From Melioribacteraceae bacterium (GTDB lineage: Bacteria; Bacteroidota; Ignavibacteria; Ignavibacteriales; Melioribacteraceae): a stretch of 46,322 bases of DNA. The notes below the pieces were generated by a model. It saw only the letters and a program-made list of their open reading frames with translations. It did no database searches and had not been told where the DNA came from. Below, piece by piece: positions 2,172 to 39,116 of this stretch. The stretch's first letter is position 1. Each line of letters begins with the position of its first letter. The translations under genes and the position numbers were made by a program. The stretch lies in the NCBI GenBank assembly GCA_028282005.1, contig JANQIV010000153.1, positions 1 through 46,322 on the forward strand, given 5' to 3'.

Positions 2172-3008
2172 TTACCTTTTTGCTACACAAAATGTGACAT
2201 TATCTCCATTCCAAAGATCATCTCCAATTAATACATCATTGTGAAAGGAGTATTCTTTGTAATTATGTTTCGTTATTATGTTTCTCAAATCATCATAAGA
2301 AAAGAAGTGAGTCCAAAATCGGTAAGAACCAACATTTCCGGAATCTTCTATAACAATGTGTTGATACAAAATCACTTTCTCTTCTTCATAAAGAAACGAT
2401 TCAGATAAAGCAAGATACGGGTCCGGTCTCCAAAAACCTTGTTCTGTTAATTCCCAATTTTTTGGTGAAACTTTCTTTTCAATATTTTTTTCACTTAAAA
2501 CATCGAAAATAAATGTACCATCAGGTTTTAATGCTTTATTGATCTTTTGCAATAATTCATCTCTTTCGGCAGGAATCAGTACTCCTAAGTCTGTGAAAAT
2601 CAAGATCACTAAATCAAATTCATTTTCAAAATCCATTTCAAGGTAACTTTGGTTAATGTAATTGATTTCAAGTCTCTTCTTTTCAGCCTCTTTTTTAGCA
2701 TAATCAATTGAATTCTTGGAAAAATCAATTCCGGTTACGTGATGGCCTTTTTTTGCAAATATTTCGGCATACAAACCAGGTCCGCATCCCAAATCAAGAA
2801 TCTTGAGATTTTGGCCTTTTGCTTTATCTAAAATCCAATCAATAGTACTATCTATGCTAGTTTTTTTCCTGCTTGCTAAATCAATTTCTTCATTCAAATG
2901 TATGGACAATAATTGCGATGAAATGTATTCATCAGTCCACATAATTTTACTGCCTTTTTCATATAACTTTGGTTTTTCTGATAATTTAATTACTTCATTT
3001 AAATTCAT
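2172..3008 (-). CDS. Class I SAM-dependent methyltransferase
   Basis: A 278-aa soluble methyltransferase with the Rossmann-fold SAM site. Motif I is ILDLGCGPGLYAEIF, followed by the acidic motif II residue in VTGIDFS and a motif IV-like FDLVILIFTDLGVL; the C-terminal half carries an aromatic, substrate-side region. It most resembles small-molecule or ubiquinone-biosynthesis-like (Methyltransf_25/11) enzymes; the substrate is unknown. The frame opens further upstream with a TTG (3038) and ATG (3035), but the ATG at 3008 is chosen because AGAGG lies six bases ahead of it, whereas the upstream starts have no ribosome site. A terminator follows, so it is probably transcribed alone. Confidence 0.85.
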   Translation of the reverse strand: MNLNEVIKLSEKPKLYEKGSKIMWTDEYISSQLLSIHLNEEIDLASRKKTSIDSTIDWILDKAKGQNLKILDLGCGPGLYAEIFAKKGHHVTGIDFSKNSIDYAKKEAEKKRLEINYINQSYLEMDFENEFDLVILIFTDLGVLIPAERDELLQKINKALKPDGTFIFDVLSEKNIEKKVSPKNWELTEQGFWRPDPYLALSESFLYEEEKVILYQHIVIEDSGNVGSYRFWTHFFSYDDLRNIITKHNYKEYSFHNDVLIGDDLWNGDNVTFCVAKR

Positions 3009-3071
3009 CTTTTCCTCTGATTTTTTAAAGTTCATCAAATAAAAAATTGCTTCTCTAATTTCTATTATTAT

Positions 3072-21934: not shown

Positions 21935-24928
21935 CTAATCTATGCCAGGTTTTAGAATTATTCCAACATTTTTCTGGCCATCTATTTTAACTGTTATAGG
22001 CTTATCAAAAGTAATGTGTCTGGTATAGTCCCTCATTTCAACATTAGCTTGCTCTTCAAGCCAATCCCAATCAATAAACCCTTGTTCCAAATGATTATTT
22101 ACCGTGAAATAACCAACTTTGAAAGAAGTAAGATTTTGGAAGAAGTGAGAACCCTGTGACGGCGCAACATTAAAATCTTTAAAGTTGGATTCAACTATAG
22201 CATTTGCTCCAGAGATCTGTTCCCATGTTACAGGAATTCCAAGCCACGGATCAAGTGTACCCCAACGCCCAACTCCAATTAATATGTATCTTTTATTCTG
22301 GTTAATTAACAAGGAATTTAATTCACCAATTTCTCTTGCTACCTCTCTTGTTCTCGATCTGTCAAATTGGTTTATATCTACATAAACTATGTCATGAATA
22401 TTTTGTATTCTGCCATTACCTAAAACGTTTTCACTTTTACAAATTAATTCCGGTTCTTCGTGAGAACTAATATTTAATTCTTCCCTTTCATCGTTTACAA
22501 CAAGAGGCCTCATTTGGAGAATTCCGAATTCTCTTTTCTTCCCCTGTTCCGGTGATAGATTTGCGGCAAATTCTATTTCAACAGGTGAGCCCATACCCCA
22601 AGCACCCATTTCAAGAAGAAGTTCTAAAATTTCGGGCAATGGAAAAACTCTGTATTTTAATATTGGAGCTAATGTAAAAAGTCTGCTACCGTTACGAGAT
22701 GTTCCATCATAAATAGCATTATTCTCTCCGGAATAAGTCGAGGCAACAAGTGGTAGAGTACTGTCGTTTTCGGCAGAACTCACAAAATATTTTTTCACAA
22801 AAATATCATCTGTGATAAGTAAATTATCGTTGCTTTCTTCTAAATCAAGAGCAAAAAATTCTTGCTGGCTGTAGTTCAGTACATCTTCTATAGTCGCGTA
22901 CTGCAATAAGTGATGGGGAAACTTAGGACAGAAACGAACTGTTGATCCACCCTCTACAATTGTTTTGCCTAATCCAAATGCACACGAAACAATTCCATCA
23001 GAAGATTTCAATGGAGGCGCTGGATAAAAATTATAAGATTTACCTACTCCGGAAAACTCTGGGTAAAATCTATTTTTATGGCGGTTGCCGACAACCTTTT
23101 GTATTATTACCGCCATTTTTTCTTCTTCTAACCTGTACGAAGTTACTTGAATGTAATCTTTAGTTTTTTGGAAAAATGTTGATGCGTAAACTAGTTTAAT
23201 TGTGTTTAATAATTGTATTAACCTTATTTCAACATCCGGATGAGAATTCGGCAGCATGTATGTTTCATAAACACCGGCAAACGGCTGGCCCTGTGAATCT
23301 TCAAGCAAACTAGATGAACGAACCGCTAAAGGATCTTTTACAATACACAAATATTCTCTCAATTGCTCCACTAGTTCAGGTGCAAAACTCTGAGCGCGTA
23401 AAAATCGGCTAATCAATTCTTTATCATCATTACAGTGAAGAGCAAACTGCTCTAAATTATTTTCAGCTAAAAATCTGTCAAAATAATCGGTAGCTACTGT
23501 GACAGAGGCCGGCACAAAAATCTCAACATCTTCAAATTGATTTCTGATATCAAAATTACTTAATAGATTATTTATAAACCCGAGTCCTCTTGCTTTGCCA
23601 CCAATTGATCCACTGCCAATGCGGGCAAAGGAAGTTTTCTTTTCAAAGGATTCCCTGTTAAAATCAAGTATAATTCCAAGCTGACGCGAGCTGCGGAAAT
23701 CGCGAACTGAGTCGATTAAAAATTCTCTCAAATCACCTATTGAACTGTAATCCGTTACTTTCCGCGGGCGTAGCTGCTGTGCAAGCCAAAACTCAGTACG
23801 GGCTTTTAACCAATTAGAGAAATGGTTTCTCTCTCCATGATATTTTATACTTTCATCTGGGACAGATTGCAGAGCTTTCTGCATCTCTTTAAGGTTTTTT
23901 GCTCTCCCTACTTCATCACCTTCTGATGTTCTAAAAACGAAATCACCAAAGCTAAAATTATCAACCATGAATTTTTGCACTTCATAAAGTAGAGTTGGAG
24001 AGTCTTTAAGTGCAAACGCACATTCTATATCATGAGCTCTTTGTTCATTCTCAGGTGTTTTAGACTGTAATAAAATCGGTAAGTCCGGATTTTGAGATTT
24101 AATCTCTTTAGCTAGTTTTATACCCGCATCACTGTCTTTTTTACCTTCTTTATAAAAATCTACATCGGAAATTATACCAAGCATATAGTCTTTGTATTTT
24201 TCATAATATTCCATTGCTTCCTCGTAAGAAGAGGCAAGTAGAATTTTTGGACGCGCACGCATCCTTAAAAATTTATGTGAAAGGTTAATCCCCTCTGAAA
24301 TTAAACTTTGTGACTGATTTAATACTTGTGTATAAACATGCGGTAAATAGGAAGAATAAAAACGGATGCTGTCTTCGACAACTATTATAACTTGAACACC
24401 AACATTATGAGTATCGTATTCAACATTATTTTTATCCTCAAGGTATTTAATAATTCCTAATATAATTCTGTAATCACCCTGCCAAATAAAAATTTTATCG
24501 AAAATGTCTGACTCTGGATGCTTTATTAAATCAAGCATTTCTCGGTTATTATAACCAAGCAAAACAATAGGAATATCTACACCGGCTTTTCTGACTTTTT
24601 TAGCAAAATCAACCGTGTTCATATCTTCTATGTGCTGAGTAGTAAGGATCAAATCGAATCTTTCATCTTGCTCAGCTAATTCGATTGCTTCAGCACCTGA
24701 TGAAACCTGAATTAACTCTGGCGAATGACTTAAGTTTAATTGCTGATACTCTTTTCTGATAAGTTCGTAAAGCCTGTTGTCTTCCTCAAAAATGTATGAA
24801 TCATATAAACTTGATACCAGAATTATATCGCGAATTCTGTAGCGCATCAAGTTGTGGAAATCCTGGAATTTTTTGTATTTACTTCCCTTAATTAAATCAG
24901 TACTAAATTTATATTTTTTGTTTTGCAT
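21935..24928 (-). CDS. Double receiver domain fused to a PEP-synthase/PPDK-like nucleotide-binding domain
   Basis: A 997-aa soluble protein. Residues 34-160 form a receiver-like domain lacking the phospho-acceptor (FDLILTTQ); 178-325 form a second one with a likely intact site (VVEDS at 184-188, D255/D257 in ISDVDF, K290 in LQSK). From about 430 comes a PPDK_N/PEP-synthase ATP-grasp-like domain: SIGGKARGLGF (441-451) and VRSSSLLEDSQGQPFAG (about 545-562), and ILQMRPL near 815. The phospho-histidine swivel and PEP-binding barrel of true pyruvate phosphotransferases are missing. It therefore probably phosphorylates or binds something else under receiver control. Homologues seem widespread in Bacteroidota, but I know no function. 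It follows gdhA after a terminator. Confidence 0.8.
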   Translation of the reverse strand: MQNKKYKFSTDLIKGSKYKKFQDFHNLMRYRIRDIILVSSLYDSYIFEEDNRLYELIRKEYQQLNLSHSPELIQVSSGAEAIELAEQDERFDLILTTQHIEDMNTVDFAKKVRKAGVDIPIVLLGYNNREMLDLIKHPESDIFDKIFIWQGDYRIILGIIKYLEDKNNVEYDTHNVGVQVIIVVEDSIRFYSSYLPHVYTQVLNQSQSLISEGINLSHKFLRMRARPKILLASSYEEAMEYYEKYKDYMLGIISDVDFYKEGKKDSDAGIKLAKEIKSQNPDLPILLQSKTPENEQRAHDIECAFALKDSPTLLYEVQKFMVDNFSFGDFVFRTSEGDEVGRAKNLKEMQKALQSVPDESIKYHGERNHFSNWLKARTEFWLAQQLRPRKVTDYSSIGDLREFLIDSVRDFRSSRQLGIILDFNRESFEKKTSFARIGSGSIGGKARGLGFINNLLSNFDIRNQFEDVEIFVPASVTVATDYFDRFLAENNLEQFALHCNDDKELISRFLRAQSFAPELVEQLREYLCIVKDPLAVRSSSLLEDSQGQPFAGVYETYMLPNSHPDVEIRLIQLLNTIKLVYASTFFQKTKDYIQVTSYRLEEEKMAVIIQKVVGNRHKNRFYPEFSGVGKSYNFYPAPPLKSSDGIVSCAFGLGKTIVEGGSTVRFCPKFPHHLLQYATIEDVLNYSQQEFFALDLEESNDNLLITDDIFVKKYFVSSAENDSTLPLVASTYSGENNAIYDGTSRNGSRLFTLAPILKYRVFPLPEILELLLEMGAWGMGSPVEIEFAANLSPEQGKKREFGILQMRPLVVNDEREELNISSHEEPELICKSENVLGNGRIQNIHDIVYVDINQFDRSRTREVAREIGELNSLLINQNKRYILIGVGRWGTLDPWLGIPVTWEQISGANAIVESNFKDFNVAPSQGSHFFQNLTSFKVGYFTVNNHLEQGFIDWDWLEEQANVEMRDYTRHITFDKPITVKIDGQKNVGIILKPGID

Positions 24929-26720: not shown

Positions 26721-26749
26721 AAAAAAAGCGACTCAATCAAGCCGCTTTT
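26721..26749 (-). terminator. Terminator closing the second regulator/surface-protein module
   Basis: Stem AAAAGCG/CGCTTTT (26724-26730, 26743-26749) extended by a G-T pair inside; seven T residues follow on the minus strand. It begins 30 bp past the stop of the last T9SS protein gene. Confidence 0.85.
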
Positions 26750-26778: not shown

Positions 26779-28074
26779 TTATTTGATTAATATCATCTTT
26801 TTAGTTTCAATTAAGTTACCAGCTCTTAATTCATAAATATAAGTACCACTTGGTAATCCTTCTGCATCAAAATTATATGAATAGCTTCCGATAGATTGTT
26901 TTTCATTTACTAGTTTCGTTAACTCTTTTCCCAATGCATCATAAATTGTTAATTCAACATCACTGACAGCGGAAAGCTGATAGCTGATCACTGTACTCGG
27001 ATTAAATGGATTCGGATAGTTCTGATTCAATACGAAATGGGAAGGTAGTGATTCAGATAACGAAATCTCAATCGTATTTGAGTACTCGTATGAACCGTCA
27101 TAATCTATTTGTTTTAATCTATAGTAATACTTCCCATTCGTTAGTTTTTCATCTAAAAATGAATAATCTTTTGGTGAGTTGCTGTTTCCGTGCCCTAATA
27201 CAAATCCTATGGCTTCCCACTCTTCGATTCCGCTCGGAGTTACATTCGGTCTGCCGTCTGTGGCCTGCTGCCTCCGCTCAACAGAGAAACCGTAATTATT
27301 TACTTCTGTAGCTGTATTCCAGTGCAGTTCAACAATATTACCTTGAAAAATATTTGCAGAAAAAAAGGTCAGTTCTACAGGAACAGGAGTAGGTGAATAG
27401 GAACAACCAGCCTGACTTGTAGCACCACCTGTGTATTCTGAAGCACTATTTGTATTGTAATTGCTTTCAATCATAAATAAAGCAAGCAAATTTTCCGGTG
27501 TATCGTTTTGTGTTGAAGAACATTTAACCTGCCAGTTATCAGCATGAGTAGTAACTGAATATGCGTTAACATTATTCGTTAATCCGTCAGGTAAATTTGT
27601 ATCAAGAGTATTACTTAATATAGAGAAACCGCTTGCACTATGATTGAAACAATAAATAAAAGTAGGACTAGCTTCTGTTCCCTGGTAAACAAGTATTTGA
27701 TCTCCACCACCAGATAAATTAAAAGTCCCGGATTTACTTACTGATCCGTCATTCACACTTGGAGTAGCAGTTGAGGGATTGCTTACAATTATTTCAGTAC
27801 CTGCAGAAATTGCAGAAGTTGCTGTCCAAGTAATTATACCTTCACTCCCTGAGGTAAAATCGTCAGTTGCTGTATTCCAACCATTATCCGTAAATCTAAT
27901 TTCTGTATTGATGTCAAGATCAATAAATGGCACAAAAGAAAAACCATCACCGCCGTCGGCATTAATAGTTGTAAGTGCGAGATTGCCTGCACTAAGCGTT
28001 GTTTGAGCAAAAATATAATTTGAATGAATTAAAATGGTAATTAGTAGGACGATAGGAATGTGTTTTCTTTTCAT
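26779..28074 (-). CDS. T9SS-secreted surface protein, paralogue of the upstream neighbour
   Basis: A 431-aa secreted protein: signal peptide 1-23 (ends FAQ), N-terminal beta domain about 25-225 of the type AGNLALTTINADGGDGFSF...FTDNGWN...WTATSAIS, also found in lamin-tail/calx-beta-like exoproteins, a fibronectin-like domain about 230-335 and a T9SS type A sorting domain about 345-431 (QNYPNPFNPSTVISYQ, ending ETKKMILIK). It should be exported and fixed to the surface or released. The frame opens at an ATG four codons earlier (28086), but the ATG at 28074 has GGGG at the right distance, like its paralogues. A 36-bp in-frame insertion lies at 27220-27255. Function unknown. Confidence 0.88.
   Translation of the reverse strand: MKRKHIPIVLLITILIHSNYIFAQTTLSAGNLALTTINADGGDGFSFVPFIDLDINTEIRFTDNGWNTATDDFTSGSEGIITWTATSAISAGTEIIVSNPSTATPSVNDGSVSKSGTFNLSGGGDQILVYQGTEASPTFIYCFNHSASGFSILSNTLDTNLPDGLTNNVNAYSVTTHADNWQVKCSSTQNDTPENLLALFMIESNYNTNSASEYTGGATSQAGCSYSPTPVPVELTFFSANIFQGNIVELHWNTATEVNNYGFSVERRQQATDGRPNVTPSGIEEWEAIGFVLGHGNSNSPKDYSFLDEKLTNGKYYYRLKQIDYDGSYEYSNTIEISLSESLPSHFVLNQNYPNPFNPSTVISYQLSAVSDVELTIYDALGKELTKLVNEKQSIGSYSYNFDAEGLPSGTYIYELRAGNLIETKKMILIK
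27220..27255 (-). repeat. In-frame 36-bp palindromic insertion (copy 1)
   Basis: Encodes GRPNVTPSGIEE between ATD and WEAIGF. The core reads CCGCTCGGAGT on the plus strand, a near-palindrome. The paralogue at 32792-34312 joins TAD directly to WTNIGF, without it. Confidence 0.7.
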
Positions 28075-28141
28075 TAAATACCCCATAGAAAATTATAATT
28101 GCTTTATTATAGTTCTATAATGTAATTCAGATGAGTGTATA

Positions 28142-28163
28142 TAGGGCTTATTTTGGATAAGCA
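28142..28163 (-). promoter_or_regulatory. Weak GGG/GG direct repeat upstream of the last T9SS gene
   Basis: TAGGGCTTATT (28142-28152) followed by TTGGATAAG, with the G clusters 11 bp apart, 68-88 bp before the ATG at 28074. It resembles the better repeats in front of the paralogue but also contains an inverted repeat (GCTTAT/ATAAGC), so it may be something else. Confidence 0.3.
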
Positions 28164-28202
28164 ATTATTTATTCATCACAATTACAATCTTTAAGAATTA
28201 AA

Positions 28203-29543
28203 TTATTTCATTAACAACATTTTTTTGGTTTCAACCAAATCATCAGTTTGTAGTTTGTAGATATAAGTCCCGCTTGATAATCCTTTCCCGTTAAAATTGT
28301 AAGAATAACTTCCGGCTTCCTGTTTTTCATTTATTAGTGTTTTTATTTCTTTTCCCAATGCATCATAAATTGTTAATTCTACGCTACTAGTTTCTGAAAG
28401 CTGATAGCTGATAACCGTACTCGGATTAAAAGGATTAGGATAATTTTGCTTTAAAACGAGGTTTGTCAATAGAGATTTGGTTAATGAAATCTCTACGGTA
28501 TGCGAATATTCAAAAGTACCATCAAAATCTATTTGTTTTAATCTATAGTAGTACTTTCCTACTATTACATTTTCGTCTACAAATGAATAATCTTTTGGCG
28601 AATTGCTGTTTCCATGCCCTAATACAAATCCTATGGCTTCCCACTCCTCGACTCCGCTCGGAGTGACATTCGGTCTGCCGTCTGCGGCCTGCTGTCTCCG
28701 CTCAACAGAGAAACCGTAATTATTTACTTCTGTAGCTGTATTCCAATTTAGCTCAACAACATTATCTTGAAAAATATTTGCAGAAAAAAATGTTAACTCA
28801 ACAGGAACAGTAACCGAACAACCGCCTTCATCCATTGTAGTGTAGTTTACTGTAGTGTTAGTGGTATTATAGTTACTTTCATCCAAAAAAAGAGCTCGTA
28901 TATTACCCGGAGTGTCATTTAGAGCTGAGTTACATATGAATTGCAAATTATCGACATGATTGCTTGGAGCAAAAGCATTATCAAGTGTATCTAAGCCAGC
29001 AGGTATGTTTGTATTATTAGAAGGTGAGCTGCTAACTGATAAATTCCATGCATTACCGCTTAACCGTCGAGTATTAATACAATATATAAATGTAGGTGAA
29101 CTTTGATCACCCTGGTATACAAGAATTTGATCACCTGAACTTGTTAAAGACCAAGTACCTGAGCGTGTCATACTTCCGCTGCTTGGCGTAGGAGGATTTG
29201 CTGTGGGGTTAGTAACTTGAATTTCTGTGCCTTGACTGATATCGCTTGTTGCGGTCCAAGTTAAAGTACCTTCAGTTGCAGTAGTAAAGTCGCTGGTACC
29301 GATATCCCAGCCTTCATCAGTAAATTTTATTACTGTCCCAGAATCTACATCCACTAACGGCATAAAAGCAAAGCCATCATTGCCATCTGAGTTAAACACG
29401 GTAATAACTAAGTCACCGGCAGAAAGAGCAGTAGCCTGAGTTTTATTTAGTTTGTTAAAATTCTCTTCTTGCTTACTTAAAGCAAAACTTTGGTATAATA
29501 GAAAGAAGACCAATAATACAGTAACCTGAAGAATCGTCCGCAT
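28203..29543 (-). CDS. T9SS-secreted surface protein
   Basis: A 446-aa exported protein built like its downstream neighbour: signal peptide, N-terminal beta domain about 40-240 (AGDLVITVFNSDGNDGFAF...TWTATSDIS), fibronectin-like domain 247-350 and type A T9SS sorting domain 362-446 (QNYPNPFNPSTVISYQ...TKKMLLMK). The two proteins are clearly paralogous along their length, showing a tandem duplication. The ATG at 29543 has GGGG upstream. It follows the second transmembrane regulator gene, separated by 150 bp that contain three 11-bp direct repeats, so it is the first candidate target. It carries the 36-bp in-frame element at 28644-28679. Confidence 0.88.
   Translation of the reverse strand: MRTILQVTVLLVFFLLYQSFALSKQEENFNKLNKTQATALSAGDLVITVFNSDGNDGFAFMPLVDVDSGTVIKFTDEGWDIGTSDFTTATEGTLTWTATSDISQGTEIQVTNPTANPPTPSSGSMTRSGTWSLTSSGDQILVYQGDQSSPTFIYCINTRRLSGNAWNLSVSSSPSNNTNIPAGLDTLDNAFAPSNHVDNLQFICNSALNDTPGNIRALFLDESNYNTTNTTVNYTTMDEGGCSVTVPVELTFFSANIFQDNVVELNWNTATEVNNYGFSVERRQQAADGRPNVTPSGVEEWEAIGFVLGHGNSNSPKDYSFVDENVIVGKYYYRLKQIDFDGTFEYSHTVEISLTKSLLTNLVLKQNYPNPFNPSTVISYQLSETSSVELTIYDALGKEIKTLINEKQEAGSYSYNFNGKGLSSGTYIYKLQTDDLVETKKMLLMK
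28644..28679 (-). repeat. In-frame 36-bp palindromic insertion (copy 2)
   Basis: Encodes GRPNVTPSGVEE. On the plus strand it contains GACTCCGCTCGGAGTGACA, with stem ACTCCG/CGGAGT around CT. It is the most regular of the three copies here. Confidence 0.75.
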
Positions 29544-29641
29544 GACTACCCCTATTTAAATTATATTTCAAATTTTTAATTTCTGACTAGATTATTTTTA
29601 TTATGAAAACATTGTGTAAATCTAAATTAGGGGAATGTAAG

Positions 29642-29674
29642 TAGGGTTTATTTTAGGTTTAATTCGGGTTTAAA
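29642..29674 (-). promoter_or_regulatory. Three tandem 11-bp direct repeats, candidate SARP-type operator
   Basis: On the plus strand: TAGGGTTTATT (29642-29652), TTAGGTTTAAT (29653-29663), TCGGGTTTAAA (29664-29674); consensus TnGGGTTTAWW, period exactly 11 bp. They lie 99-131 bp before the ATG of the T9SS protein gene at 29543. A possible -7 box (TAGATTTA, minus strand 29625-29618) lies 16 bp gene-ward. SARP regulators bind 11-bp-spaced direct repeats near the -35 region, and the protein encoded next door carries a SARP-type DNA-binding part. Confidence 0.6.
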
Positions 29675-29693
29675 ATTTAGATAAAAATCTATA

Positions 29694-32669
29694 TTAACGT
29701 TTTTTTTCTGTTAAAATTTCGTCGAGACTCAGCTTATAATTTTTACCGAAAAGATTTCGGTATTCGTTATTAAATTTTGTAAATACTATCGCTGCCTCCG
29801 ACAAATCATTTAATTTATTCAATAACCTTATAAAATAAATTATGTCAATTTCATTAATTGGGTCTATTGATACCATTAATCGCCCAGCATTTATACGATT
29901 ATTACTATCATAATTTTCATTTCTTAGGATATTGCTCAAAACTTTAGCTGTTTCTCTATCACACCATGTTTGAAAGTCATTTAACCAATCATAAGAATTG
30001 CTGCAGCTCAAAAAAGTATTATTATTAACAATTTCAAAAAAAGTTCTTAGTTCTCTTGCGGATAAATTATTCTCAGTATTCTTTTTCTTCAACATAATCC
30101 AATCAAAATAATCTAAGTCTAATTCCTTTTTCAGTTCTAAATGCCACTTTCTATTATAAAACTTTATTTCGCCTAATTCTTCATTTTCTAAAAATTCTCT
30201 TAATCTTTTTATTGTTAAGTTTCTTTTATTTTTTAAACTTTTTTCTTCTACATCACTCCAAAGAACTTTCATTAATTTTTCAGAAGAAATGCCGTTCATT
30301 GATTCCCTTTCATCGAATGAATGAATTAACAAGATTAGAAATAATTCTTTTAATTTCGGAGTTAGTTTATGAGTTACATTTTCAAATTTAGTGTTGTAAA
30401 TTACTAAAGCCCCAAAAACATTAATATTATATTTATCTTCTTTCGGTTCTAAATTCTCAAGTGCCAAGTTTTTTTCAATTTTTTTGCCTTTTCTTTTGGT
30501 TGAATAGAAATAAACCAGAAAAACTAAGCCAAAGACTAATAAACCACCGATTAAAAATATTTTAGCGTTTGTTTTAACAACATAATCAACAATTATTTCT
30601 TTGCTTGTGTTCGAAAATCTATCCACTGCTACAATTTTGATTTCGTATTTTCCACTTTTCAAATTAGCAAAGCGTATACTATCACTCATAGTGATAATAT
30701 TCTTTTCATATTCTAAATTTTCACTTCTTACTTCGATTTTGTATTTTATTTCAGGTTCTAAATACAAACTTGATCCCGAATAGCTTAAAAAAATCTCATT
30801 ATTGTCAACATAACTTTTAGATTTATTATAAGTTAATTTCGGTTTTTTATTGTAATCTTCAATATCATCTAACTCAAAAGAAGAAACTCCACCGATTGTA
30901 CCTAACCAGATTTTTCGATTTTTGTTATCATAAACAAAGGCACTTCTATTTAATTCGTCATCACCAAGTCCGTCAAAACTATTGTAATTTTTTATATTAC
31001 CATTTACTTTTCTGAATAAGCCAAAATTTGTACCGATCCAAAAATTATTATTGTTATCAGTTTTATTGATAAAATAAACTTCGACTATTTTGTCAGGATT
31101 GTTTGTTAAATGTATTCTTTTATAATTTCCATCGACTAATCTATATAAACCCTTTCTTCCACCAACAATTAAGTCGAGCCCACTTTTTTCTAAAGAAAAC
31201 ATATCCGGTATTTCAGAATTTGAATTTGTAATCTTTCCTTTGTTAATATCGAAAGAAAGAATTCCCAAATTGGAAACCAATGTTACTATATTTTCATTTT
31301 CCTGAAGAATTCTTCTGAAATAATACTCTTTTTCTAATGTCGTGTTGTAAACTCTAGAAACTTCATCATCATTTATTTTATAAAAATAAAATTTTGCTCC
31401 TACAAATATTTCCCCGTTTTCCAACAAAATCATTGTCTGAAAATTTATATTATTAAACCATTTTATATTTTCAGGATTATTAATATCATCGATTCGTCCT
31501 ATTCCAAGTTTTTGAATTAAAAACCAAGCTCTTTGTCTATCATCAATTAATAAATCAATTACCCTTGAATTAGCTTTTTCAACAAAATTTGATAAAGAAA
31601 TTTTGGTAAATTGACCATTCCTCAATAATGTCAATCCATTTTGCTGCCCTAATAACAAATCACTGTTATCAAATTTAGCTAATGCTGAAACATCATTATT
31701 CAATAGTCCATCTCTATGAGTATAAGTTTTGAATAATGGTTTGTTAATTCTAATAATACCTATTTTTGAACATACCCAGATGTTATTGAAATCATCAACG
31801 AACGTTTTGGCACTAATTTCCGGTTCAATACCATAATATTCATTTAGATTAGTTTTTTCCCAGGTTTCAGAGTTTACAACGTAATGAGTTAAACCGGAAC
31901 ATATCGCAAGTTTATTTTCGGAAATTCTATTTATGTAAGGAGTAAGAACTCTATAATGAACTGCTAACGAAATTTCCGTTAAAATTTTCTTATAATTTCC
32001 ATTACTGTAAATTATAATATGATTATTCATAAGAAAAATAAGTTCATTATTATAAGTATCTTCGTAAATATAGTAGGTTGGCATGCCGCTTATTTTATTG
32101 CCAGATTTTAATGATAAATCATCATATACAAAAATCCCTTTGTCACTGCTAATCCAGAGTTTACTTTCAAAAATTGCGAGATCTGTTAGGTAGAAAAAAT
32201 CGAATTTTTCAGGCAATCTATACTTAACCCATTTTTTGCTTTCATAAGAATAAATTATACCAGATTTCTCGACAAAAAATATCCTTCCATGAAAAATTGC
32301 TAATCCGATGACTTCTTCAACATTTTCCGGAATTGCTATACTTTCAAAAGATTTCCCATCATATTTGATTAGCTCATTTTTATTTGTGTTTGAAAAAAAC
32401 CAAATATTTGAACTGTCATCAGACACTAATCTTTTATATAACGGTTGATTTTGAGAAATCTTTTTGACTACGGTTAAATCTTTTCCATCATATTTTAAGA
32501 CTTGTGTTCCGGTTAGAAAATAGACTTCCTCGTCATTAAATTGTAATCCGTCAAGAATAGATTGGTTAGTTACATCAAACTTATTTCTGAATTCTGTAAT
32601 CTTATATTCGTTTGCCTGAATGAAAATGATCAAACATAAAGGAATTAGGAAAATTCGAAGGAATTTCAT
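29694..32669 (-). CDS. Transmembrane beta-propeller regulator with SARP-type wHTH and BTAD
   Basis: A 991-aa one-component regulator. Signal peptide (MKFLRIFLIPLCLIIFIQA), a beta-propeller of Reg_prop-type repeats about 20-600 (LWISSDKGIFVYDD, FWIGTNFGLFRK, IWLGTIGGVSSFEL), a Y_Y_Y-like domain about 610-700, one TM helix about 702-722, then in the cytoplasm a winged helix about 745-850 (FGALVIYN, TPKLKELFLILL, SSEKLMKVLW, IKRLREFL) and a BTAD-like helical repeat domain about 850-985 (SIDPINEIDIIYFIRLL). It has no kinase or receiver. The frame reaches 32720; the ATG at 32669 is chosen because the signal peptide starts there and it aligns with the start of its paralogue. It should sense a periplasmic ligand and bind DNA directly. 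Confidence 0.88.
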   Translation of the reverse strand: MKFLRIFLIPLCLIIFIQANEYKITEFRNKFDVTNQSILDGLQFNDEEVYFLTGTQVLKYDGKDLTVVKKISQNQPLYKRLVSDDSSNIWFFSNTNKNELIKYDGKSFESIAIPENVEEVIGLAIFHGRIFFVEKSGIIYSYESKKWVKYRLPEKFDFFYLTDLAIFESKLWISSDKGIFVYDDLSLKSGNKISGMPTYYIYEDTYNNELIFLMNNHIIIYSNGNYKKILTEISLAVHYRVLTPYINRISENKLAICSGLTHYVVNSETWEKTNLNEYYGIEPEISAKTFVDDFNNIWVCSKIGIIRINKPLFKTYTHRDGLLNNDVSALAKFDNSDLLLGQQNGLTLLRNGQFTKISLSNFVEKANSRVIDLLIDDRQRAWFLIQKLGIGRIDDINNPENIKWFNNINFQTMILLENGEIFVGAKFYFYKINDDEVSRVYNTTLEKEYYFRRILQENENIVTLVSNLGILSFDINKGKITNSNSEIPDMFSLEKSGLDLIVGGRKGLYRLVDGNYKRIHLTNNPDKIVEVYFINKTDNNNNFWIGTNFGLFRKVNGNIKNYNSFDGLGDDELNRSAFVYDNKNRKIWLGTIGGVSSFELDDIEDYNKKPKLTYNKSKSYVDNNEIFLSYSGSSLYLEPEIKYKIEVRSENLEYEKNIITMSDSIRFANLKSGKYEIKIVAVDRFSNTSKEIIVDYVVKTNAKIFLIGGLLVFGLVFLVYFYSTKRKGKKIEKNLALENLEPKEDKYNINVFGALVIYNTKFENVTHKLTPKLKELFLILLIHSFDERESMNGISSEKLMKVLWSDVEEKSLKNKRNLTIKRLREFLENEELGEIKFYNRKWHLELKKELDLDYFDWIMLKKKNTENNLSARELRTFFEIVNNNTFLSCSNSYDWLNDFQTWCDRETAKVLSNILRNENYDSNNRINAGRLMVSIDPINEIDIIYFIRLLNKLNDLSEAAIVFTKFNNEYRNLFGKNYKLSLDEILTEKKR

Positions 32670-32731
32670 CAAGTTGTTAAAATTAGTAGGTTTTTTTTGA
32701 AGAATAATATACTGATTCATTTTTGAATCAC

Positions 32732-32756
32732 AAAAAAAGCGGTTCGCTTGAACCGC
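32732..32756 (-). terminator. Terminator closing the first regulator/surface-protein module
   Basis: Perfect stem GCGGTTC/GAACCGC (32739-32745, 32750-32756) with loop GCTT and seven T residues after it on the minus strand. It lies 35 bp past the stop of the NHL protein gene and only 63 bp before the second regulator's ATG, so that regulator needs readthrough or a promoter squeezed into the gap. Confidence 0.9.
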
Positions 32757-32791
32757 CTCTAATTAGATTTACAAATTGGATAAACATTAAG

Positions 32792-34312
32792 CTATTTTAA
32801 TAAAATCATTTTCTTTGTTTCTGAAAAACCGTTTGTAGTTAATCTATAAGTGTAAGTTCCGCTCGGTAATCCTTCGGCATTAAAATTATATGAGTAACTT
32901 CCGGCAAATTGTTTTTCATCAACCAGTGTTGAAACTAATCTACCTATTGAATCAAAGATTTCAAGTTTTGCCTGACTTTCTGAAGAGAGACGATAACTTA
33001 TAATAGTAGCTGGATTAAACGGATTTGGGTAGTTTTGATTCAACACAAAATGGGATGGTAGAGATTCCAACAATGAAACCTCTACCATATTTGAGTATTC
33101 GTAAGAGCCGTCATAATCTATTTGCTTTAAGCGATAATAAACTTTTCCAGCTGTCATTTCTTCATCTTTGAATGAATAGCTCTTTGGTGAGTTACTATTT
33201 CCATGTCCCAATACAAATCCTATGTTTGTCCAATCTGCTGTTTCCGGCCTGCGTTCTATGTTGAACCCGTAATTATTTATTTCTGTTGCAGTATCCCATT
33301 TTAATTCAATTAAATTCTTCTTAATAAGAGCAGTAAAAGAAATTAGTTCGACAGGTAATGCTGCATCAGATAGTATTTGAACCCTATCATTATTTCTATC
33401 TACAATAGCCATTTTGGTTCCACCATCAAAAGCCATATCAACTACGCCGCCATTGGATGCAAATTGGATTTCACCTGTTCCAACGGAACCAAAGGTCGAT
33501 TTATATACCCCGGAGCTATTCCAAATTGATACTCTTTCATTATTCCTGTCACAAACATAAATATCGCCGGTTGGAGAAACAGCAACTCCTTCAGGATTAT
33601 CAAATTGTCCATCACCTGCTCCTTCTGAACCAATTTCTAAAATGAATACACCATTACTGTCAAACTTTTGGACTCTATGATTAGCTCTATCAGCAACCCA
33701 TAAATTATAATCCAAATCAAAAGCTAAATCAGAAGCCCCACCGTTTGATGCAAATTGACTAGTATCACTTCCTAATGAGCCAAATTTACCAAGAAAATTA
33801 CCATCTTTATCAAAATATTGAACTCGTTCATTTCTCCTGTCTGCCACATAAATTTTTCCAGTGGTTTCTAGTATAGTGACACCATATGGGTCATCAAAAT
33901 TACCGTCACCTGAACCCAGCGTACCAAATTTTGCTAAAAAATTTCCTGTGCTGTCAAATTTTTGCAACCTATCGTTACCTCTATCAACAATCCAAATATC
34001 GCCATCGGAAGTAATAGCTGCATCCTCTGCAGCATTGGAAAAAAATTGTCCATCTCCACTGCCTGATGATCCAAATTTCCTTATAAAATTTCCTGTGCTG
34101 CTAAAAATCTGGATACGTTCATTATTTTTATCAATAACCAAAATTTTTCCATCAGGGAAAAAAGCTACACCGCTTGGTGAATCTAATTCTCCGTCTGAAG
34201 TACTGGGAGTAGATGTAGTCCCAATTTGAAATTCAAAAACTTGAGCAAAAAACTCATCATGAAGAATGACACAATTAAAGAGAATTATTAAAATGTATAG
34301 ATATCGCTTCAT
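32792..34312 (-). CDS. T9SS-secreted NHL-repeat protein (no in-frame insertion)
   Basis: A 506-aa secreted protein: signal peptide 1-24 (ends FAQ), six NHL blades about 25-315 (FDDPYGV...IYVADRRNERVQYFD, each with D-R-x-N-x-R-V/I-Q), a fibronectin-like domain 316-415 and a type A T9SS sorting domain 423-506 (QNYPNPFNPATIISY, ETKKMILLK). Six blades suit a closed propeller for protein or glycan contact. The ATG at 34312 is preceded by GGGG. It lies 68 bp after the paralogue's stop, with no promoter-like repeats, so the two NHL genes are probably one transcript. It lacks the 36-bp element, giving a clean empty version (ETADWTNIGF). Confidence 0.88.
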   Translation of the reverse strand: MKRYLYILIILFNCVILHDEFFAQVFEFQIGTTSTPSTSDGELDSPSGVAFFPDGKILVIDKNNERIQIFSSTGNFIRKFGSSGSGDGQFFSNAAEDAAITSDGDIWIVDRGNDRLQKFDSTGNFLAKFGTLGSGDGNFDDPYGVTILETTGKIYVADRRNERVQYFDKDGNFLGKFGSLGSDTSQFASNGGASDLAFDLDYNLWVADRANHRVQKFDSNGVFILEIGSEGAGDGQFDNPEGVAVSPTGDIYVCDRNNERVSIWNSSGVYKSTFGSVGTGEIQFASNGGVVDMAFDGGTKMAIVDRNNDRVQILSDAALPVELISFTALIKKNLIELKWDTATEINNYGFNIERRPETADWTNIGFVLGHGNSNSPKSYSFKDEEMTAGKVYYRLKQIDYDGSYEYSNMVEVSLLESLPSHFVLNQNYPNPFNPATIISYRLSSESQAKLEIFDSIGRLVSTLVDEKQFAGSYSYNFNAEGLPSGTYTYRLTTNGFSETKKMILLK

Positions 34313-34339
34313 ATTATTTCCCCAATTATATACAGATTA

Positions 34340-34367
34340 AAGTTGTTCAACAAAGCTTAAACAACTT
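34340..34367. other. Intercistronic inverted repeat between the two NHL genes
   Basis: AAGTTGTT (34340-34347) and AACAACTT (34360-34367) can pair with a 12-base loop; on the minus strand only TAATC follows. It may stabilise or partly terminate the transcript between the two genes. Confidence 0.4.
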
Positions 34368-34380
34368 CATGTTGATTGAT

Positions 34381-35940
34381 TTACTTTATCAATACCATCT
34401 TTTTTGTTTCTACAAAATCATCTACTGATAATTTATAGATGTAAGTACCGCTGGCCAGTTTTTCAGCATTAAAGTTATATGAATAACTTCCAGCGATCTG
34501 CCTTTCGTTTACAAGAGATTTAATTTCTTTACCCAATGCATCATAAATTGTAAGTTTTACAATACTGACTTCTGAGAGCTGATAGCTGATAACTGTATTA
34601 GGATTGAACGGATTTGGGTAGTTTTGTTTTAATACAATTTGAGAAGGTAGTGATTCCGACAATGAAATCTCTATCACATTTGAGTATTCGTATGAGCCAT
34701 CATAGTCTATTTGTTTTAATCTGTAAAAAATTCTTCTATCTTCTACATTTTCGTCAATAAAAGAATAATCTTTTGGTGAATTACTATTGCCGTGTCCTAA
34801 TACAAACCCTATCGCTTTCCACTCATCCACTCTGCTCGGAGTAACATTCGGTTTGCTGTCTGCTATTAGCGATTTCCGCTCGATAGAGAATCCATAATTA
34901 TTTATTTCTGTAGCTGTGTTCCATCTTAACTCAATTGAATTCTCTTTAATGAGAGCAGTGAAAGAAGTCAGTTCAACCGGTAAAGCTGCATCGGTAAATT
35001 TTTGTACTCTGCTGTTACCTCTATCAACAACATATATTCCTGTACTTCCATCAAATTCCAAATCAACACAACCATTATTTGAAGCAAACTCACCATTCCC
35101 ACTTCCGGCAGTACCTCCAAATTGGGATTGATAAACACCACTACTGTTAAACACTTGAACTCTTTCGTTAAGTCTATCACAAACATAAATATCACTTGTG
35201 GAAGCAATACCAATTCCGGTTGGTTGATTAAATTCTCCATTACCAGTTCCATTTGATCCAAATTGATCTTGATAAACTCCTGAACTGTTAAATTTTTGGA
35301 CTCTATGATTTCCACGGTCAACTACCCAAATATTATCTGATCCATCAACAGCTATATCAACGGCACCATTATTTGCAGCAAATTGACCGTCGCCACTTCC
35401 TGATGATCCGAATTGTGATTGGTAAACCCCGCTGCTGTTAAAAACTTGTACCCTTTCATTATTACGGTCCGCTACCAGAATATTTCCATTTGATAAAATT
35501 GCAATTCCATTTGGATTATCAAATTCTCCATTTCCGGTACCGTTTGAACCAAATTGTGATTGATAGACACCGGAACTATTAAATATTTGGACTCTAGAAT
35601 TTCCACGGTCAACAACGTAAATATTATCAGATCCATCAACAACAATATCTACAGGACCGTTATTTGCAAAAAATTGACCGTCGCCACTGCCAGATGATCC
35701 GAATTGAGATTGATAAACCCCGCTACTGTTAAAAACTTGAATTCGTTCATTATTTCTATCAGCTACAAGTATATTTCCATTTGATAAAACGGCAATACCA
35801 TTAGGGTTATCAAAATTACCATTTCCAGAGCCTGATGAACCAAACTGAGAATCGTAAGATGCTTGTGGGAAAATTGTATTTTGAAAAACAAAGATTATTA
35901 TAAATTTTAGTAAAAAAATATTACTGAAAAGGTTTTTCAT
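34381..35940 (-). CDS. T9SS-secreted NHL-repeat protein with 3 two-blade units
   Basis: A 519-aa secreted protein: signal peptide 1-26, six NHL blades about 30-316, fibronectin-like domain 320-428 and type A T9SS sorting domain 436-519 (QNYPNPFNPNTVISYQ, ETKKMVLIK). The blades alternate between two forms, VADRNNERV and VVDRGNSRV, so the propeller is three copies of a 97-residue pair (33, 130, 227). The start at 35940 has GAGG upstream. It directly follows the first regulator gene; a pair of CGGGTTATAT repeats and a TAAATTTG -7 box lie in between. A diverged 36-bp insertion (SKPNVTPSRVDE) sits at 34822-34857. Confidence 0.9.
   Translation of the reverse strand: MKNLFSNIFLLKFIIIFVFQNTIFPQASYDSQFGSSGSGNGNFDNPNGIAVLSNGNILVADRNNERIQVFNSSGVYQSQFGSSGSGDGQFFANNGPVDIVVDGSDNIYVVDRGNSRVQIFNSSGVYQSQFGSNGTGNGEFDNPNGIAILSNGNILVADRNNERVQVFNSSGVYQSQFGSSGSGDGQFAANNGAVDIAVDGSDNIWVVDRGNHRVQKFNSSGVYQDQFGSNGTGNGEFNQPTGIGIASTSDIYVCDRLNERVQVFNSSGVYQSQFGGTAGSGNGEFASNNGCVDLEFDGSTGIYVVDRGNSRVQKFTDAALPVELTSFTALIKENSIELRWNTATEINNYGFSIERKSLIADSKPNVTPSRVDEWKAIGFVLGHGNSNSPKDYSFIDENVEDRRIFYRLKQIDYDGSYEYSNVIEISLSESLPSQIVLKQNYPNPFNPNTVISYQLSEVSIVKLTIYDALGKEIKSLVNERQIAGSYSYNFNAEKLASGTYIYKLSVDDFVETKKMVLIK
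34822..34857 (-). repeat. In-frame 36-bp palindromic insertion (copy 3, diverged)
   Basis: Encodes SKPNVTPSRVDE at the same place in the fibronectin-like domain as copies 1 and 2. The palindrome is eroded (CTCTGCTCGGAGT), suggesting an older or separately inherited copy. Confidence 0.65.
34993..35844 (-). repeat. Tandem 291-bp repeats inside the NHL protein gene
   Basis: Three units of 97 codons, each coding for two NHL blades. DNA similarity between units is high, especially in the part coding NSSGVYQSQFGS. Such repeats can grow or shrink by recombination. Confidence 0.75.
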
Positions 35941-35980
35941 AATTGCCTCAATTTTGAATTCTTTTCAACAGGAATTATGA

Positions 35981-35988
35981 CAAATTTA
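35981..35988 (-). promoter_or_regulatory. Bacteroidota-type -7 box
   Basis: TAAATTTG on the minus strand, an exact match to TAnnTTTG, 41-48 bp before the NHL gene start and 20 bp gene-ward of the CGGGTTATAT repeats, whose position therefore overlaps the expected -33 region. Confidence 0.5.
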
Positions 35989-36007
35989 AAGCTGAAGAGT
36001 ACTTAAT

Positions 36008-36041
36008 CGGGTTATATTGGGGTGTCTGAGCGGGTTATATT
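36008..36041 (-). promoter_or_regulatory. CGGGTTATATT direct repeats, candidate regulator operator
   Basis: CGGGTTATATT occurs at 36008-36018 and again at 36031-36041, 23 bp apart, with GGGGTGTCTGA between them (36019-36029), giving three G-clusters at about 11-12-bp steps. It lies between the regulator gene and the NHL gene, 68-101 bp before the start codon. It resembles the three-unit GGGTTTA array in front of the paralogous module. Confidence 0.55.
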
Positions 36042-36065
36042 TGTTAAAAAATTGATTTTTCTCGG

Positions 36066-39029
36066 CTAAGTTAAAATATCATTGAGTTCTGATTTATACT
36101 CCTTTCCAAATAAATTATAGTATTCAATATTAAACTTTTTGTAGATTTCTGCGGCCTGGGATAATCGGTTCGAATTATTTAAAAGTTTTATAAAGTATAT
36201 TACTTCCGATTCGTTTAAAGGATCAATAGAAACTAAAGTATTTCCTGCTCTTAATCTTAATTCAATTTCTAGATTTTCATTATGCAGAATTTTTGTTAAC
36301 GTATTTGAGCATTCCCTATCGTGCCAAATCTTTATTTCTTCAAGCCAATCGTAGTTATTGCTGCTTAAAAAATTTCCTTTTTTGATGATGCTTATTAATG
36401 AGTTTGATTCAGCAACATTTAGTTCCAGATCACTATTTATTTTTTCTCTTAATTTTGTCCAATCAACATAATCAATCCTCAATTTTTCATTTAGTCTTAA
36501 AATCCATTTTTTCTGTTCAAATATTATTTCACCAAGTTTTTCTGCCTTCAAAAATTCACGTAATCTTTTTATTAAAGTGTTTCGTTTGTTTTTAATATTC
36601 TCATCAGATGAATCATTCCATAGATGATTGCTTAGTTTTTCTGAAGAGATTCCGTTAATAGTTTTTCTTTGATCGAAAGTGTAAATTAAAAGCAGAACAA
36701 ATAACTCTTCCAGTTTTGGTGTAAATTTATGAGTAATGTTCTCACCTTCTACATTGATAATTGTTAATGATCCGAAAGTATTTATCTTAAAACTCTGCGA
36801 TACGGTGAAGCTACTTTTCTCTTCAGCTTCAATATTTGTTATCTTTGGACTCCTTTTTCGAATTATTAGAAATAGAACAATTACAATGGCCACAACAATG
36901 ATTACAATTTTGTAAAACGTTGCATTAGCAATTCTATTTTCAATTTTATATTCCAGAAAAATTTCTTCACTTTCGTTTGAAAATCTATCAACTGCCTTTA
37001 TTGATAACTTATAATTATCCTCCTCCAAATTTTCTAAGGTGATATTTTGATCCACAGTGAAAAATTCGTTATGATATCCTGAGCTTTCCCCTTCTACCTT
37101 TATGAAATATTTTAATTCGGGTTGAGGGTATAAACTTACTCCATAATAGTTTAGAAATAATTTTCCTTTTTCATTTAATGTGTTTTTTCTGTCAATCCAT
37201 ACTTTAGGTTTTACTGTACGATAATTTAGTTCTTCTAAATCAAGGCTAGACAATCCGGAGATTGTGCCAACCCATATTCTTTGATTTTCTTTATCAAATA
37301 CAAAAGAACTCCGGGTTAACTCATTATCACTTAATCCATCAACAGATGAAAAATGCCTAATATTATTATCTATGAGCTGGAAAATTCCTTTATTAGTTCC
37401 AAGCCATATTTCACCCTCATTAGCACCATTTATAAAATATACTTCGGGAGATTTTTTACTAATTGTGTTTATAGGAATTTTTGATAAATTGTTCTCTTTC
37501 TTTCTAAATAGTCCTGGTTTACCACCTATTAAAATTTCCTTATCGTACTCATAAGCTGAATACATATTATTAATATATTCTAAATTATGTTTAACATTGT
37601 TAGCCAAAAGATCATATATAAATACATGGGAACGTGCAATAGCAATAGCAATAGAATCACTTGCCTCAATAACTCTTCTAAAATATATATTTGGTAAATC
37701 TTTTATATCATATACTTTATTAACATCATTATTGTTTATTTTATGAAACCCATTTCGTGACGCTATAAAAATCTCTCCGGTTTTGAGCTCAGTCATAGTT
37801 AAATAATTACTATCATTAAACCATTTGATTTCCTTAAAATTATCGATGTTATCTATTCTGCCAATTCCACGATTTTGAATTAAGAACCATACACTCTGCT
37901 GTTTATCGATGATCAAATCAATTACATGGGATAGTTGTTGCCCGTCTTTTCCATTTAACGGAATTTCGATAAAAGAATTATCTTTAATAAATGTCATTCC
38001 CGTAAGGTGGCCAACTAAAATGTTTCCATTATCAAATTGTGAGATTGAAGAAACATAGTTAGCCAAAAGTCCATCGGTTTTTTTAAGATTGTTAAATAGT
38101 GATTTATTAATTCTGATTATTCCAAGATTAGAACATACCCAAAGGTTATTAAAACTATCCCTAAAGATTTTTGTACTGTGAGCAGGTTTTATGTCATAAA
38201 CTTCATTGAAATATGTGAGTTTCCAATTATGCGTATTTAATATGTAATGAGATTTATCCGTTCCGATAATTACTTCAGAGTCAGAAATTCTGATAATATC
38301 TTTGCTTACCCTATCATCAGTTCCTAGCGGAATACCTGTATTAATCATTTGCAACGAGTCATTTCGAAAAACTCCGAGTTTATTTTCATTTAAAAGAAAA
38401 ATAGTAGAATCGGAATCATCAAAATAAATATCATAGGTTGATTTTTTTGTGACTACTCTATTTGATTGATATGAAGAATCATTAAATACAAATGTTCCTT
38501 TGTTTGTAGAAATCCAAAGCTGCTTATCTATAATTTCTAAATCTGTAATAGATGATCCACTAAAAAGCCTGGGCAAATTTATCTCTCGCCAACTATTATT
38601 TTCGAAGGAATATAACTCATCTCTATTTGTTGCAAATACTATTTTAGAATCTTTTACAGTATGTGCATATATCCCTTTTATATGTTTGCCGATTGGAATA
38701 GATTTGAATGTAAAGCCATCATATTTAATTAACTCATTTTTCCCAACACTAGAAAAAAACCAAATATTCGATTGGTCATCTGTTATAATATCTTTAGAGA
38801 AAAAATATGAATCAGAAATTTCTTTAATGGCTGAAAATTTGTTCCCGTCAAAAGCTAAAAGCTCATTGGTAGTAAGAAAATATAATCTTCCATCAGGCCC
38901 TTGAACACCATCTAATATAGCTTGATTAGCAAAATCTGAGATATTCCTAAAATCAGTGATTAAGTAATCTTGAGTTCGAAGTGAAGTAATTAAACAAAAT
39001 GTGACTAAAAGATAGAATATGGGTTTCAT
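36066..39029 (-). CDS. Transmembrane beta-propeller regulator with SARP-type wHTH and BTAD (paralogue)
   Basis: A 987-aa paralogue of the regulator at 29694-32669, with the same order: signal peptide (MKPIFYLLVTFCLITSL), Reg_prop-type propeller (LWISTNKGTFVFND, IWLGTNKGIFQL, IWVGTISGLSSLDL), Y_Y_Y-like domain, one TM helix (FYKIVIIVVAIVIVLFLII), a winged helix (FGSLTIIN, TPKLEELFVLLL, SSEKLSNHLW, IKRLREFL) and a BTAD-like domain (SIDPLNESEVIYFIKLL). The ATG at 39029 is preferred to the TTG at 39032; neither has a strong ribosome site. It starts 88 bp after argH on the same strand. It is the likely regulator of the two NHL genes immediately downstream; its ligand is unknown. Confidence 0.88.
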   Translation of the reverse strand: MKPIFYLLVTFCLITSLRTQDYLITDFRNISDFANQAILDGVQGPDGRLYFLTTNELLAFDGNKFSAIKEISDSYFFSKDIITDDQSNIWFFSSVGKNELIKYDGFTFKSIPIGKHIKGIYAHTVKDSKIVFATNRDELYSFENNSWREINLPRLFSGSSITDLEIIDKQLWISTNKGTFVFNDSSYQSNRVVTKKSTYDIYFDDSDSTIFLLNENKLGVFRNDSLQMINTGIPLGTDDRVSKDIIRISDSEVIIGTDKSHYILNTHNWKLTYFNEVYDIKPAHSTKIFRDSFNNLWVCSNLGIIRINKSLFNNLKKTDGLLANYVSSISQFDNGNILVGHLTGMTFIKDNSFIEIPLNGKDGQQLSHVIDLIIDKQQSVWFLIQNRGIGRIDNIDNFKEIKWFNDSNYLTMTELKTGEIFIASRNGFHKINNNDVNKVYDIKDLPNIYFRRVIEASDSIAIAIARSHVFIYDLLANNVKHNLEYINNMYSAYEYDKEILIGGKPGLFRKKENNLSKIPINTISKKSPEVYFINGANEGEIWLGTNKGIFQLIDNNIRHFSSVDGLSDNELTRSSFVFDKENQRIWVGTISGLSSLDLEELNYRTVKPKVWIDRKNTLNEKGKLFLNYYGVSLYPQPELKYFIKVEGESSGYHNEFFTVDQNITLENLEEDNYKLSIKAVDRFSNESEEIFLEYKIENRIANATFYKIVIIVVAIVIVLFLIIRKRSPKITNIEAEEKSSFTVSQSFKINTFGSLTIINVEGENITHKFTPKLEELFVLLLIYTFDQRKTINGISSEKLSNHLWNDSSDENIKNKRNTLIKRLREFLKAEKLGEIIFEQKKWILRLNEKLRIDYVDWTKLREKINSDLELNVAESNSLISIIKKGNFLSSNNYDWLEEIKIWHDRECSNTLTKILHNENLEIELRLRAGNTLVSIDPLNESEVIYFIKLLNNSNRLSQAAEIYKKFNIEYYNLFGKEYKSELNDILT

Positions 39030-39116
39030 CAATAAGCTTTCATATGAAAAATTACAATAACTGCTTCATAAATTTCATAATTATAATGGTTGAAGTCAAA
39101 TTAACGCTTAACTCTT

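Follow-up and report, generated by a model that had tools for sequence, protein, structure and literature searches.

Predicted membrane-anchored SARP-type regulators with candidate operators ahead of T9SS genes in a Melioribacteraceae bacterium

The locus and its two regulators

The window analysed here is the whole stretch of 46,322 nucleotides, contig C262 of a 4.09-Mb genome (98.9% complete) from a bacterium of the Melioribacteraceae (class Ignavibacteria), and all the evidence is computational. Its minus strand encodes two putative membrane-crossing regulators, R1 and R2, each followed by two genes for proteins of the type IX secretion system (T9SS). In the order of transcription, argH is followed by R2, two T9SS genes and a terminator, and then by R1, two T9SS genes, a second terminator and a glutamate dehydrogenase gene (Table 1). 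The six same-strand open reading frames (ORFs) in two regulator-then-two-T9SS blocks are present as an earlier sequence-only reading had described them, and the strong terminators that it placed at the end of each block both fold far better than shuffled sequences. All four T9SS proteins carry the TIGR04183/PF18962 sorting domain (E<=6e-9, with 46.8-53.5 bits against a cut-off of 23). By their sequences, R1 and R2 are old paralogues with 41% identity over the whole length, and alignment with the paralogues indicates that R1 probably starts at Met18 (base 32669). The description of the locus as a duplicated module holds for these regulators but not for the T9SS proteins, which are tandem pairs within each block. 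Comparison across the blocks showed an NHL propeller head against an unrelated beta-rich head, with only the pre-tail and the tail in common.

Table 1. Features of the two regulator blocks, in the order of transcription (positions are those of the window).
Feature	Position	Strand	Description
R2	36066..39032	-	988 residues, TTG start; predicted signal peptide, double propeller and Y_Y_Y-like domain, transmembrane helix, cytoplasmic winged helix and BTAD; transmembrane helix at about residues 706-724
R2 candidate operator	36009..36039	-	TATAACCC / ACACCC / TATAACCC direct repeats 12 and 11 bp apart, between the 3' end of R2 and the T9SS gene 34381-35940
R2-block TAAATTTG	35981..35988	-	Bacteroidota-type -7 box (TAnnTTTG; consensus PMC9723704), 20 bp past the third repeat
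T9SS type A protein, NHL propeller	34381..35940	-	first candidate target gene of the R2 block
T9SS type A protein, NHL propeller	32792..34312	-	second gene of the R2 block
Intrinsic terminator closing the R2 block	32732..32760	-	-14.7 kcal/mol, z -4.1 against shuffles
R1	29694..32720	-	R2-like predicted architecture; 1008 residues as listed
R1 candidate operator	29644..29672	-	TAAACCC / TAAACCT / TAAACCC direct repeats, spacing exactly 11 and 11 bp
R1-block TAGATTTA	29617..29624	-	-7-box-like, 19 bp past the third repeat
T9SS type A protein	28203..29543	-	first candidate target gene of the R1 block
T9SS type A protein	26779..28086	-	second gene of the R1 block; tandem paralogue of 28203..29543 (46% over the head)
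Intrinsic terminator closing the R1 block	26721..26749	-	-12.3 kcal/mol, z -4.7 against shuffles

R1 and R2 are two of four propeller-type regulators in this genome (R1-R4). A second genus of the Melioribacteraceae (G411, which includes the metagenome-assembled genome PL25a_bin.33) also has four, and the propeller subfamily is known only from these two genera among comparison genomes that are species representatives. In the tree, R1 pairs with L085 and R2 with L084, and R3 and R4 are grouped with the two regulators of L069. Genome contigs were scanned with an alignment of the four paralogues. About a tenth of the genomes of the class match the C-terminal family, weaker soluble SARP-like proteins included. 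Most of the other membrane-bound family members have a LamG/Kelch-type sensor and are referred to below as Kelch-type relatives.

Hydropathy analysis of R1 and R2 showed one strong transmembrane (TM) segment at residues 706-739, followed by basic residues. Both proteins have a signal-peptide-like start, that of R2 being under the hydropathy cut of 1.6 yet evident in the sequence. The Pfam families expected in the sequence-only reading were found unevenly. Reg_prop passes its cut-off of 20.4 bits in R2 (33.6) but not in R1 (16.9), and Y_Y_Y is sub-threshold in R1 (E 0.006) with no match in R2. The Trans_reg_C and BTAD profiles have no match in R1 or R2 themselves but were each found in three of 27 family members (best E 3.5e-9 for BTAD and 0.002 for Trans_reg_C). 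A profile search of R1 and R2 gave no match to HisKA, HATPase_c, Response_reg or HTH_18/HTH_AraC. At the sequence level, R1 has no match in the PDB and neither regulator has one in NCBIfam; a profile of the 27 C-termini compared with the PDB gave only one TPR-like and one chance match.

Predicted structures, both built on four sequences, supported the proposed architecture better than the Pfam profiles did. The full-length model has an overall predicted local distance difference test (pLDDT) score of 63, with 70-85 in the sensor part; its C-terminus was unusable and was therefore refolded alone. The best PDB matches of the predicted sensor are sensor crystal structures from the hybrid two-component systems (HTCS) BT4663, BT3049 and BT4673 (4a2l, 3v9f and 3ott, Foldseek E 1e-25 to 1e-29), followed by the T9SS component PorZ. 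The C-terminal 265 residues folded alone gave a pLDDT of 64, with 70-95 for the winged helix and the last helices. AfsR (8hvr/8k60) and EmbR (2ff4/2fez) are the only PDB matches of this model at E<1e-3 in Foldseek, and its comparison with AfsR yielded a VIA Z of 10.5 over 220 residues. The winged helices of CadC and TcpP also match the model. The predicted order of signal peptide, propeller sensor, single TM helix and winged helix plus BTAD, as read earlier from the letters, was thus borne out by the TM helix, the HTCS-like sensor and the AfsR/EmbR-like C-terminal fold.

This combination, in which no kinase or receiver domain was matched, agrees with the one-component architecture proposed earlier. 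However, the regulators might not be autonomous and might receive the signal through a histidine kinase encoded elsewhere or through some other membrane protein, as could be suggested by the module of one paralogue, which is followed by a 7TMR-DISM hybrid kinase gene and receiver genes (L031:11904-18383). Neither of the modules in the window nor that of R4 contains a kinase gene, and R1 and R2 have no receiver domain that could take up a phosphate. We consider such a relay highly improbable.

Candidate operators downstream of the regulators

Three AACCC-type direct repeats, 11-12 bp apart, lie 3' of the regulator gene and are followed at 19-20 bp by TAnnTT and then by the first T9SS gene. Each of the four modules in the window's genome shows this layout, as does each of the three modules that can be read in the second genus. 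TAnnTT stands 20 bp from the third repeat in six of these seven gaps and 19 bp in the other one, and any other offset occurs in at most two of the seven. The longer form TAnnTTTG is the -7 box of the Bacteroidota sigma-A (PMC9723704). In a motif-free test, in which any three 6-mers at 10-13 bp spacing were allowed, the AACCC-type repeats are the best triple in the seven regulator-T9SS gaps (in register or within a base). The Fisher P value is 3.6e-9 for the seven gaps and 6.8e-6 for the four gaps of this genome alone, compared with 0.73 when 20 other gaps from these loci are tested.

Scanning of the window's genome with the pattern ACCY-N6-8-AAYCC-N19-20-TAnnTT gave eight matches. Four of them are the junctions, where the match stands 20-76 bp ahead of the T9SS start codon, and the remaining four lie inside ORFs. 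The second genome has nine matches, three of which are the junctions; the other six are not just upstream of any gene. The triple pattern without the TAnnTT box is not enriched in the window's genome (11 matches vs. 11 in the reversed control); only the pattern with the box and its position relative to the genes are informative.

The Kelch-type relatives took no part in the definition of the motif and provided an independent test, covering 160 bp 3' of each gene with 268 other genes as the control. A triple repeat lies 3' of the gene in 14/34 family regulators vs. 3/268 control genes (P=1.7e-12), and in 8/27 when only the Kelch-type members are compared with the same control (P=2.4e-7). The best triple among 86 gaps near these relatives, TTAACCC three times at 12 bp, is located 3' of the regulator at L095. 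A zinc-ribbon ORF comes next, followed by a T9SS gene, and this is the only Kelch-type regulator of the set whose next long ORF is a T9SS gene. The last repeat stands exactly 8 bp before TAnnTT in L086, L095, L096 and L100 as measured by script, and by eye in L108, in L097 (from a fourth repeat) and in the weaker L087 and L093. In the published description of SARP promoters, the repeats are spaced at 11 or 22 bp and the 3' repeat is 8 bp from the -10 element (PMC10936776).

A family-wide AACCY triple was tried and set aside; many of its matches are AACCTY hexamer repeats or lie inside ORFs. Its R1-like match in genome G002 has no such regulator adjacent, and that in G341 has none on the side covered by sequence. 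L211 and L212 are Kelch-type homologues that belong to other classes of the phylum. Inspected by eye, neither has a clear AACCC triple 3' of its gene, and L211 apparently carries ATTAAGG repeats in its place. Another class of the phylum has two adjacent SARP-type ORFs (L214:2479-5782), one with two TM-like segments, and the gap after them contains short GTAATCGC/GTAACCC repeats, beyond which a large secreted protein is encoded.

Considering the predicted folds together with these repeats, we propose, with a probability of roughly three in four, that R1 and R2 are membrane-anchored SARP-type regulators that work as one-component systems, each acting on the promoter that immediately follows its own gene. 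A periplasmic ligand would change the pairing of the cytoplasmic domains. The HTCS sensors suggest that the ligand may be oligosaccharide-like, the studied COG3292 sensors being known to bind oligosaccharides (PMC3878776). By comparison with AfsR, the cytoplasmic domains would occupy adjacent repeats, each repeat being bound by one protomer, and the bound regulator would recruit RNA polymerase to the TAnnTT promoter. Both T9SS genes would then be transcribed up to the terminator, the second one by read-through. The earlier suggestion that each regulator directly drives its two neighbour genes is partly supported by the SARP-like repeats ahead of the first gene, which are conserved in another genus and among Kelch-type relatives. 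In each block a clear candidate operator precedes the first T9SS gene only, and the gap at 28087-28202, before the second gene of the R1 block, contains only a decayed copy of the repeats.

The same anatomy and operator would also fit a regulator that acts as a repressor of the T9SS genes (or of read-through from its own gene), with the signal relieving the repression. The position of an operator alone is no proof of activation, and only 19-20 bp separate the end of the third repeat from TAnnTT, near enough to the -33 region to block the polymerase. However, the SARP-fold proteins that R1 and R2 resemble are activators (AfsR, PMC10936776). The placement of the repeats upstream of, rather than across, the -7 box and the start site suits activation, and the 8-bp phase in the Kelch-type relatives is that of SARP-activated promoters. 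Repression is in our estimate unlikely.

Several observations weigh against the proposed reading of R1 and R2. Both structure models are mediocre, with a pLDDT of 63-64. The motif was first spotted by eye in the seven gaps, and the pattern counts are thus post hoc, a concern that the motif-free and the Kelch-type tests answer only in part. Taken singly, three gaps (those of R2, R4 and L085) give weak results (P 0.04-0.07), and two pairs of gaps are orthologous and not independent. The distance from the third repeat to TAnnTT is 19-20 bp in the window's subfamily vs. 8 bp in SARP promoters. The former equals 8 bp plus one repeat period (11 bp in R1, whose repeats are 11 bp apart, and 12 bp in the others), and we conjecture from the sequences that it reflects a decayed fourth site. 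However, a fourth degenerate unit is poorly supported by a leave-one-out matrix. Finally, more than half of the Kelch-type relatives show no such repeats 3' of the gene. The last point would also suit a reading in which the repeats serve another factor or the core promoter of a class of T9SS genes while the regulators act elsewhere. The genome has 98 T9SS genes, yet the intergenic matches to the pattern occur only at the four regulator junctions, and Kelch-type relatives with a non-T9SS next gene bear the same repeats. We consider this reading very unlikely.

Linkage to T9SS genes and exchange of cargo

The gene directly downstream is T9SS-tailed for all four regulators of the window's genome and for L069a and L085. 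At L084 the next gene has an NHL T9SS-type head and is cut by the contig end, and at the eighth regulator the contig ends. With 98 T9SS proteins in 4.09 Mb, chance would hardly produce a linkage of four in four. The NHL-propeller T9SS proteins encoded after R2 and after its orthologue are 81% identical over the readable part, whereas those after R1, the R1 orthologue and R3 have another, mutually homologous head. A p6-like NHL gene with 88% identity in the head lies upstream of the regulator at L085, so that in the second genome, too, the NHL genes probably stand between R2 and R1, in an order now split over two contigs.

The conserved linkage to T9SS genes expected from the sequence-only reading therefore holds in the propeller subfamily, for four of four here and every readable module of the second genus, but not in the wider family. 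T9SS genes are rarely next to the Kelch-type regulators, whose next gene often encodes a zinc-ribbon microprotein. The next gene of the wider family being often not a T9SS gene, the conserved unit is the regulator with its operator rather than the regulator with T9SS. The candidate operator lies directly 3' of the stop codon of the regulator's own gene; thus the regulator and the operator form a transferable unit, and the cargo gene varies between genomes.

The zinc-ribbon microprotein (39-57 residues, CPHCGKxIxxxAxRCKWCK) was observed after the repeats in L035, L104, L106, L086, L087, L093 and L095. It is encoded 0.1-0.3 kb 3' of the Kelch-type regulator and has only weak Pfam zinc-ribbon matches. 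Its position suggests that it is likely the first target gene of the Kelch-type membrane SARPs, and it may be a feedback partner.

On a broader scale, we lean towards a membrane-embedded SARP family in Ignavibacteria and relatives that has the promoter geometry of actinobacterial SARPs, with direct repeats every 11-12 bp whose phase relative to the -7/-10 box is fixed. Its members would be self-contained cassettes of sensor, switch and operator, in which both the cargo (T9SS surface proteins, zinc-ribbon microproteins, lipoproteins, a peptidase) and the sensor (propeller or LamG/Kelch) are exchangeable. In R1 and R2 the SARP output fold, with promoter repeats to match, is predicted in a different phylum, under a periplasmic domain resembling glycan sensors. 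This suggests a single-step route, with no phosphorelay, from a signal at the surface to the T9SS genes. To our knowledge, there is almost no regulatory genetics for the class Ignavibacteria. The candidate operators are short and exact and name the target promoter of each regulator, and a ligand-responsive sensor encoded by a single gene, together with its promoter, would be a handy tool. No description of a Reg_prop/Y_Y_Y-TM-SARP protein was found in the literature searched, which covered few subscription papers.

Two further features of the window were observed. The pre-tail regions encoded at 26779-28086, 28203-29543 and 34381-35940 contain an in-frame insert encoding RPNVTPSG(I/V)EEW, which is absent from the fourth T9SS gene. 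The DNA of the insert has a palindromic core like CACTCC-GAGCGGAGTCGA-GGAGTG and looks like a repetitive extragenic palindromic (REP)-type element within coding sequence. At 21935-24928, adjoining an aminotransferase gene and a glutamate dehydrogenase gene, a 997-residue protein shows an unusual fusion of receiver-like domains with a phosphoenolpyruvate (PEP)/pyruvate-binding (PPDK_N) domain.

Comparison with known systems

SARPs have been studied as soluble activators of antibiotic clusters and are best known from Streptomyces. R1 and R2 resemble the family (AfsR, EmbR) in the predicted winged helix and BTAD fold and in the direct repeats at about 11 bp by the promoter, the spacing being 11-12 bp at all seven R1/R2-type junctions. 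However, the described SARPs are cytoplasmic with an N-terminal SARP domain, whereas that of R1 and R2 is C-terminal, membrane-anchored and placed under a periplasmic sensor. The distance to the -7/-10 box is the SARP-like 8 bp in several Kelch-type members and 19-20 bp in the propeller type. With the HTCS proteins BT4663, BT3049 and BT4673, R1 and R2 share the periplasmic double propeller with an Ig-like domain and one TM helix. They differ in having a SARP output instead of the histidine kinase, receiver and AraC domain.

The same sensor family, at about 24% identity, occurs in two kinase-less propeller-TM-AraC proteins of the window's genome (L033:285-2966 and L034:286-2988), which also lie beside T9SS-type genes. 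Their output is of the AraC type; the sister proteins P0006 and P0007 match HTH_18 and HTH_AraC, and R1 and R2 match neither. They follow the same sensor logic with an AraC output, a parallel one-component design. In L034, 17-nt direct repeats occur three times, spaced 21 and 19 bp (3004-3060), ahead of the T9SS neighbour. The starts of the two contigs (L033:1-284 and L034:1-285) contain near-identical T9SS gene ends and nearly the same region upstream of the AraC-type regulator, reflecting either a recent duplication or an assembly break at a repeat.

SusR-type regulators of B. thetaiotaomicron likewise combine a periplasmic sensor and a cytoplasmic DNA-binding domain in one protein (PMC3878776). 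SusR differs in controlling starch genes, and the likeness is one of architecture rather than of a sequence comparison with SusR (BT3705). CadC, ToxR and TcpP share with R1 and R2 a membrane-anchored winged helix without a phosphorelay. In these proteins the winged helix is N-terminal and the periplasmic domain C-terminal, with neither BTAD nor propeller, and the domain order of R1 and R2 is the reverse of that in CadC and ToxR. R1 and R2 are SARP-type by output fold and HTCS-type by sensor, and they lack a defining feature of each type, the cytoplasmic N-terminal SARP domain of the one and the kinase and receiver of the other. By analogy, they would work like SusR-type or CadC-type one-component membrane regulators.

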